A stretch of 64,000 bases of DNA from Ruania alba (lineage in GTDB: Bacteria > Actinomycetota > Actinomycetes > Actinomycetales > Beutenbergiaceae): assembly GCF_900105765.1 (NCBI RefSeq), contig NZ_FNTX01000002.1, positions 2,480,001-2,544,000 on the forward strand, in the 5' to 3' direction. Shown here in pieces: positions 2,663-5,608 of the stretch. The notes under the pieces were generated by a model, which saw only the letters and a list, made by a program, of their open reading frames with translations, searched no databases and was not told the origin of the DNA. Within the stretch, counting starts at the first letter, position 1, and every line of letters starts with the position of its first letter. The position numbers were made by a program, and so were the translations under genes.

Positions 2663-2710
2663 GTTCAATCTCACCACACGATCACCTACATGACGGCGCA
2701 CAATGGTTCC

Positions 2711-5608
2711 ATGAGCAGCAGGAGAGACTGGGAGTCCGCCGAGCATGTCGCGAGAGAGTCGCTGTCGAAGGAGGAAGGGCAGTCCGCTTCTGAGGCTGCG
2801 CCCAATCAGGAGCACGCATCGGATGCTGTCCACATAGACAAGCTAGACGAACTTGCGAGAATGGCAAGTTCTCTTGGCAAACAGTATGTGATAGTTCATC
2901 AGAATCTGGGATCTGGCAAACTAGATGCACATTGGCGTGAAATGTCTGATCGGGTGCTCCGTGCCGTCTCCCAATCCGGGGCATTGAGGACTCAAATAGG
3001 CTCGGATATATTCTCGAGATTCGTGGAAACGTTCGAACAATCGAAGCCGTTGATAGCGCAAACGCTACGTGAGTTGTCGAGTCGGTTCGAGGGGCTCCCG
3101 CCTGTCCCGTTGAACGAAACTCTGCTCGAAGCGTTGGAGCAGGCTGTGCGCGCTTCGCAGAAAGGTTTGGATGGAAGTTCCGCTGAACTACGGGATCGGC
3201 TCAGCGATTTTATAGAGCGAGTGGCGAATCGTCAGACCACCGAGTCTGTCGTTTCTCGCGTGGAGAGCCTGCGGGGTCAACTGCGAGAGGCTCAGGCTAC
3301 CTATTATCAGGATGACACGAGCATTCTCTCGGACTACGAGTTCGACCGAACAATGGATCTTCTCGAGGCAGAAGAAGAGTACTTTGAGTCAATACGGCGC
3401 CCGGACTCGCCGACCCAGGAGGTGGGCGGCTCCCGGTCTGCGCTGTTCGACCCGGTCGAGCATGCCGAGCGGATGCTCAGCCTGGACAACGTCTTCTCCA
3501 TCGACGAACTCACCGAGTGGGCCGCGAAGACCTCGGCCGCGGCCGGCCGGACGCCGGCCTGGCTGTGCGAACTGAAGATCGACGGGCTCGCGATCTCGTT
3601 GCGTTATGAGCTCGGCCGACTCACCAGTGCAGCCACTCGTGGTGACGGCCGCACGGGTGAGGACGTCACCGTGAACGCCCTGCGCGTGGCCGGGATCCCC
3701 GAGCACCTCAGCGGCACTGATCACCCGACTCTCGTCGAGGTGCGCGGTGAGGTGTTCATCCCCACGCGCGGGTTCGCCGAGTTGAACGAGCTGCAGGCGC
3801 AGCTGCAGGAGCGCGCTGTCGCGGCAGCACGGGAGCGGTGGGAATCCAGGCCGGAAGCCACGCGGGGCCCGTTCGACGAACAGCGCGAAGCAGCATCCGC
3901 GGCCCGGCGGTTCCCCGCCTTCGCCAACCCGCGCAACGCCGCCAGTGGAGGGCTGCGTCAACAGCTCGACAAGAAGTCCGGTCTCGAGCGTGAGGCCGGT
4001 GACGCGCGGGTCGCGACCTTGCAGTTGTATGTCCACGGCATCGGTGCCTGGCCACGCCCGCCGGTCGCTGCACAGAGTGAGATCTACGACCTGCTCGCCG
4101 GGTGGGGCCTGCCGGTGAGTCCGCACTCGAAGGTCTGCACGAGCATCGAGGAGGTGGCGGCGTTCGTCGCGCATCATGGTGAGCATCGCCACGATGTGGA
4201 GCACGAGATCGACGGTGTCGTGGTCAAGGTGGACGAGCTGACCCTGCACGACGAGCTCGGCGCCACCAGTCGCGCCCCACGGTGGGCGATCGCGTACAAG
4301 TACCCGCCGGAGGAGGTGCACACGAGACTGCTCGACGTCGCGGTGGGCGTGGGACGTACCGGCCGGGCCACCCCCTACGGGGTGATGGAACCGGTGCTCG
4401 TGGCCGGCAGCGTGGTGCGGCAGGCGACTCTGCACAACCAGGACGTGGTGCGCGCCAAGGGTGTGCTCATCGGGGACACGGTGGTGCTGCGGAAGGCCGG
4501 CGATGTGATCCCGGAGATCCTCGGCCCGGTTGTCGAGCTGCGTGACGGCACCGAGACCGAGTTCGTGATGCCGAGCCACTGTCCCGAGTGCGGCACCACG
4601 TTGCGGGCGATGAAGGAGGGCGACATCGACCTGCGCTGCCCGAACGCACAGTCCTGCCCCGCGCAGGTGCGCGGTCGGGTCGAGCACATCGGCTCCCGCG
4701 GGGCGCTCGACATCGAGGCACTGGGGGAGGTCACCGCCGCCGCACTCACCCAACCACGGGTGCCGGCGGTGCCGCCCCTGATTACCGAGGCTCGACTGTT
4801 CGATCTCACCCTCGACGAGCTCGTCCCCATCGAGGTGGTGGTGCGCGACGCCGAGACCGGCGAGCCTCGCACCGACGACGACGGTGAACCGGTCGCACGC
4901 AAGCCGTTCCAGAAGATACGCCTCGACTACCCGCCCGAGGCGGAGGGGATGACCGCCCAGGAGCGGCGCAAGGCCGGATACCGCAAGGACCACCCCGTGG
5001 TGGAACCATCCGCCCAGGCCGAGACGCTGATCGACGAGCTGGAGGCAGCGAAGACCAAGGAGCTCTGGCGCCAGCTCGTCAGCCTGAACATCCGGCACGT
5101 CGGACCGGTGGCCGCACGAGCGCTCGCGGACTGGTTCGGATCCCTGCAGGCGATCGAGGCGGCGAGCGAGGAGGAACTCGCGCAGGTCGAGGGCGTCGGG
5201 CCCACCATCGCTGCCGCCGTCACCGAGTGGCTCGCCGTCGACTGGCACCAGCAGATCCTCGACCAGTGGCGGGCTGCCGGCGTCCGGTTCGCCACCCCGG
5301 ACCACCCCGGTCCGGGTGCGGCGCAGCAGGACGGCGTGCTCACCGGTCTCACGGTGGTGGTGACCGGGTCGATGGAGCATTTCACCCGCGACGGGGCCAA
5401 GGACGCCATCATTGCCGCGGGCGGGAAGGCAGCCGGGTCGGTCTCGAAGAAGACCGACTTCGTGGTGGTCGGCCCAGGTGCCGGGTCCAAGGAGACCAAG
5501 GCGCGTGATCTCGGACTGTCGATCCTGGACGAGGCCGGGTTCGAGCGGCTGCTCGACGGTGGCCCGGACGCGGTGGCCGATCTGGTCGGTGGTGAGTCGG
5601 ACAGCTGA
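2711..5608 (+). CDS. ligA: NAD-dependent DNA ligase LigA with atypical N-terminal extension
   Basis: Seals nicks in duplex DNA using NAD+; essential in replication and repair. From about residue 180 it follows LigA order: Ia domain (YYQDD...SDYEFD), [10 protein letters not shown] linker, adenylation domain with catalytic Lys in ELKIDG (codon 3575-3577), OB fold, four-cysteine zinc site (CPEC...CPNAQSC), helix-hairpin-helix repeats, and a C-terminal BRCT domain from about residue 875. The 965-residue length exceeds the usual 670-830. The extra part is about 180 helical, charged residues without a recognised domain, encoded by markedly AT-richer DNA up to about 3400. In the Ia domain the residue matching E. 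coli Tyr35 is Phe. The start is uncertain: ATG 2690 (possibly leaderless) and ATG 2711 are both open, and neither has a clear ribosome binding site. Confidence 0.9.

Follow-up and report, generated by a model that had tools for sequence, protein, structure and literature searches.

The window analysed here is a 64,000-nucleotide stretch of the Ruania alba genome (contig NZ_FNTX01000002.1, positions 2,480,001 to 2,544,000 of the forward strand), which carries close to its left end a ligA gene whose frame ends at 5608. The essential ligase of bacteria is described as an NAD+-dependent enzyme (PMC5052709). Within and directly ahead of the gene, the following features were delineated:

2663..2711, no strand: left junction zone, from the end of the exact match to congeners (2663, start of the divergent upstream gene) to the ligA start; based on the congener match
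2699..2710, plus strand: putative ligA -10 hexamer CACAAT (2699-2704) with a 6-nt spacer, in a leaderless layout; based on the spacing common to relatives
2711..3256, plus strand: orphan N-terminal extension of about 182 residues encoded by low-GC DNA; based on composition, open frame and start layout
3257..3397, plus strand: Ia (NAD+/NMN-binding) subdomain, foreign and divergent; based on a weak Nlig-Ia match, congener identity and invariant columns
3395..3431, plus strand: right junction at a conserved 10-residue motif (DSPTQ region); based on the GC3 breakpoint and the resumed DNA match
3398..5608, plus strand: native LigA body with adenylation, OB, zinc finger, HhH and BRCT parts; based on Pfam, NCBIfam and congener identity

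The ligA gene of R. alba is a mosaic gene, in which a break in composition coincides with a break in similarity to relatives. A previous sequence-only reading had called the 5' part compositionally foreign, and this is confirmed by a GC content of 54.3% for 2711-3399 compared with 69.9% for 3400-5605; the two counts given in that reading (26 G+C at 2881-2940, 43 at 4261-4320) proved exact on recounting. The low-GC stretch spans both the Ia subdomain and the extension. GC3 is about 0.58 from the start to DSPTQ (about 2711-3397; 0.578 at 2711-3250 and 0.571 at 3251-3397) versus 0.865 after it (3398-5605), and the maximum-likelihood GC3 breakpoint within the gene lies at 3395. Elsewhere in the window, no stretch as long as the segment falls below 60.4% GC (z -5.4). 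Of 580 tiles drawn from a 400 kb sample of this genome, one was as low in GC as the ligA segment (z -4.6), and the 69 equally low sliding windows (out of 19,320) were confined to two of the 20 stretches sampled (L047 and L052), so that the composition of the segment is rare, but not unique, in this genome.

Downstream of the break, PF01653, PF03120, PF03119, PF12826 and PF00533 follow one another in order, all above their curated cut-offs, and the NCBIfam equivalogs (PRK07956 / TIGR00575) likewise scored above cut-off (730.9 versus 369; 642.7 versus 444). For comparison within the genus, which in the GTDB sense comprises eight genomes in our set including that of R. alba, the only one of its species, seven congeners were available. 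Over the 200 residues after the junction, the protein is 76-89% identical to these congeners (mean 83), which share 74-97% among themselves (mean 82). Over Ia, identity to the congeners is only 37-48% (mean 43), compared with 60-97% among the congeners themselves (mean 74; 21 pairs). By these protein identities the Ia subdomain was replaced as well, which the sequence-only reading had implied when it called everything up to PDSPTQ foreign. The Pfam model Nlig-Ia matches it with an E-value of 0.0004 and 21.4 bits, under the cut-off of 27.

Four Ia columns (Y, Y, D and D) are invariant in all 22 aligned sequences, that of the window included, and these conserved tyrosines and aspartates have a catalytic role. 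The subdomain is described as binding the NMN half of NAD+ and as being required for adenylation (PMC5052709). A native Ia query recovered only the ligA locus in the own genome, with no displaced Ia copy, and one full LigA locus was found among the matches listed, with one further, weaker match counted. The retained invariant residues, the lack of a native Ia copy in this search and the single full locus listed suggest that the chimera is probably the active, working LigA of the cell. Compared with LigA as defined by PRK07956 / TIGR00575, the Ruania protein is thus alike in domain order, NCBIfam scores and invariant Ia columns, whereas it adds about 182 residues of no known family and differs in its foreign, divergent Ia and the sharp internal break in composition.

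Counted from ATG 2711, the extension amounts to about 182 residues ahead of Ia. Its first 46 residues are acidic (net charge -6) and the remainder is mostly predicted helix; two single-sequence AlphaFold2 models were helical as well, at low confidence (mean pLDDT 45.3 and 53.0). Searches with the extension gave sub-threshold hits in Pfam (DUF4404, E 0.1, 13.7 bits, cut-off 27), weak hits among solved structures (best E 0.25) and no match in PHROGs or PADLOC. It is an orphan protein segment in its own right, and we take it as a tolerated helical appendage.

The start of the gene had previously been put at 2690; judging from the promoter layout of relatives, ATG 2711 is the likely start. In all seven congeners read, ligA begins at a GTG located 6-7 nt downstream of a -10-like hexamer. 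A promoter scan, in which 61 relatives and the window were parsed (19 of 80 named loci failed the motif filter), detected a -10-like hexamer 6-7 nt upstream of the start codon for 37 of the 61 relatives (31 at spacing 6, six at spacing 7), and each of the remaining spacings between 0 and 30 accounted for zero to five relatives. The 61 parsed relatives are largely Microbacteriaceae and do not constitute independent samples. By the same count, many Micrococcales seem to have a leaderless ligA. The low-GC stretch of the window yields further hits at spacings 8, 10 and 25, but the 6-7 nt spacing occurs there at ATG 2711 alone. This start places 231 codons before DSPTQ, compared with 58-88 for the 37 relatives that have the 6-7 nt spacing. 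For bacteria, a leaderless signal about 12 bp upstream of the start has been described, along with leaderless genes being common in Actinobacteria (PMC3160421). The putative ligA hexamer, beginning 12 nt before ATG 2711, resembles the signal described there.

At the right junction, four of the seven congeners become similar again at the DNA level from 3397-3401 onward (85-94% identity across 36-40 bp); such a match is absent from the reported results for three of the seven, and one congener (G005) gave no DNA match. On the left side, 2640-2663 is matched at 100% in three of the seven congeners. In an alignment with four congeners, the start of the upstream gene matches in three and the ligA body in all four, and at the left junction these four differ among themselves. 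All seven congeners keep a short native 5' end of ligA, and neither they nor the other genera sampled share the extension, although the sequence-only reading had named such sharing, with normal composition, as a finding that would speak against it. The earlier proposal that the 5' end was replaced by recombination at the PDSPTQ motif is supported by these comparisons, with the breaks in GC3 (3395), in protein identity and in DNA similarity (3397-3401, four of seven congeners) coinciding.

The explanation that we favour, with a probability of roughly 0.78, is that R. alba imported the 5' part of an unsampled, lower-GC ligA, which would have been joined homologously at DSPTQ and illegitimately near the promoter. 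The ancestor of the strain would have carried an ordinary Ruania ligA, and the incoming fragment would have come from the 5' region of a ligA that was divergent, lower in GC and already equipped with a long N-terminal extension. This fragment may have recombined at the near-identical stretch coding for DSPTQ, where the identity of 85-94% to four congeners would allow the DNA to act as a homologous anchor, and its other end may have been joined near the promoter and start region, where congeners share little sequence. The outcome would be a chimera that stays in frame and keeps a leaderless-type promoter in the customary position, and in which a new extension and a new Ia were set on the native adenylation-OB-Zn-HhH-BRCT body. 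As the LigA of the cell, it would still bind NAD+ through the swapped Ia for self-adenylation, and the helical extension would be an added appendage that leaves the active site unblocked. Of these points, the mosaic structure, the positions of the junctions and the lack of the extension in the relatives compared are shown by the sequences, and a single event, the one-sided homology, the type of donor, the retained activity and the role of the appendage are inferred.

A homologous right junction together with a left junction in divergent DNA would fit one-sided homologous plus illegitimate recombination. Integration of this kind has been described for three competent species and also, as a very infrequent event, for E. 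coli (PMC3240628). As in the events described there, one ligA junction lies in near-identical DNA and the other in non-conserved DNA, and a short foreign segment was apparently gained; the ligA case differs in being deduced from sequence and in its outcome, an in-frame chimera of an essential gene. It is equally possible that the donor supplied its own leaderless promoter, since this layout is common in relatives.

With no donor found, the extension and Ia could also have arrived separately. Such a history of two events, with Ia exchanged with another ligA and the extension fused from unrelated low-GC DNA after the start codon, would agree with the GC3 of the first 90 nt (0.77 at 2711-2800, nearer the host value, compared with 0.43-0.53 at 2801-3070) and with an extension for which the sets searched yielded no credible relative. 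We nevertheless consider it unlikely, as GC3 is nearly equal in the extension and Ia (0.578 and 0.571) and a pair of independent in-frame changes is less simple. Quite improbable, in our view, is a LigA that begins near codon 180, an alternative already raised in the sequence-only reading, with the upstream DNA being a leader or an unrelated open frame. It would give the protein its usual N-terminal length and could draw on the hexamer hits at the other spacings; however, the ligA frame is open throughout this stretch (dinucleotide-shuffled versions stayed open in 14 of 20,000 cases), its GC content differs among the three codon positions in the manner of coding DNA (0.617, 0.444, 0.578), and the spacing typical of relatives is found only at ATG 2711, which would put the start ahead of the extension.

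The five best Ia matches by E-value, after its own, are all from the same family, so that the donor may have belonged to this family or the native Ia may have diverged fast. A native 5' end that became divergent and longer through rapid evolution and a drift towards AT, without any transfer, is nonetheless very unlikely: the sharp breaks in composition and identity coincide at 3395-3401, and Ia identity lies below the entire congener range, whereas the adjoining 200 residues lie within it. We give hardly any credence to a chimera produced by assembly. The species is represented by a single assembly, but the junction is in frame, Ia keeps its invariant residues, the genome is listed as 100% complete in two contigs, and, as given above, the upstream gene start matches three of the four aligned congeners and the ligA body all four.

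A mobile element had also been suggested as the source of the segment, and this was not supported. The phage, plasmid, IMG/VR and GTDB searches contained no relative of the extension, the segment has no terminal repeats, and of the eight neighbouring frames scanned, three had Pfam matches (acetyltransferase, MFS and trypsin-like), none of them of a mobile type. Repeats in 2560-3560 comprised three 11-nt two-copy families only; the copies of one family lie roughly at the two sides of the segment (2740 and 3457) and were taken as chance. It appears far-fetched that the swap was adaptive, with a mobile or viral Ia and extension altering a ligase surface attacked by a phage protein, toxin or inhibitor; if true, the cell would have escaped through an in situ exchange of the part under attack within an essential gene.

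At an E-value of 0.001, a search of 396 genomes of the order gave no match to the extension other than its own (395/396 without a match, the seven congeners included). In a sample of the phylum, seven of 396 genomes matched, the six others weakly and within query residues 147-236, and in a sample of the class, searched at a lax E-value of 1, 158 of 394 matched, the best other hit (E 0.001) being to a stretch containing a stop. Two class loci, L147 and L148, again showed weak matches to the extension when 126 loci were searched by a local tblastn (35-37% across 60-65 residues, with E-values of 0.001 and 0.013 for this small set) and were read as helical chance matches. A tblastn with residues 1-247 matched four plasmid and ten phage records, in each case at the Ia end of the query (residues 164-247), and a distant blastn gave no match. 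No relative was detected in IMG/VR with three N-terminal queries or in a first search of GTDB genome contigs, both of which used exact 8-residue peptides and reach close relatives only. In a second GTDB contig search, matches among the best 80 of 375 relatives start at query residue 68 or later, and none of the 12 relatives aligned shows a shared extension.

The 36 viral LigA loci gave no extension match at an E-value of 1; the 12 that passed the motif filter have a first-Met distance of 53-62 codons, with one exception of 90. One locus considered as a LigA with a long N-terminus (L151) was dropped, as it has no Met ahead of the usual position (Met starts only, not GTG). Overall, no donor of the segment was found in the phage, plasmid, IMG/VR and GTDB searches, most of which reach close relatives or samples only. 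LigA-like genes were seen in 179 plasmid records (41 Streptomyces) and 127 phage records, none of them tied to the ligA segment.

Mosaic genes are already known, and what is notable here is the gene affected and the orphan extension. A foreign, low-GC front in place of the native NAD-binding piece would illustrate clearly how an essential gene can be rebuilt in situ. If true, an essential replication enzyme had part of a catalytic domain replaced by a distant counterpart and received a large appendage along with it, and the position of one crossover is known to within a few bases. The chimera would then constitute a natural experiment on the tolerance of the NAD+-binding subdomain of LigA, and it would also speak to the question of whether essential genes can be rebuilt through one-sided homology. 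None of the titles listed in a literature search deals with a swap of the ligA 5' end, which does not prove that no such report exists.

Further low-GC patches were observed in the same genome. The lowest tiles of the 400 kb sample belong to about 1.4 kb at 52-55% GC (L052:15802-17175; contig C2, about 866 kb), and a second patch at 55.5% GC contains a 440-aa open frame (L047:1-1543; contig C1, about 1.94 Mb). Within the window itself, GC dips to 60.1% at 63001-63700, near its end.
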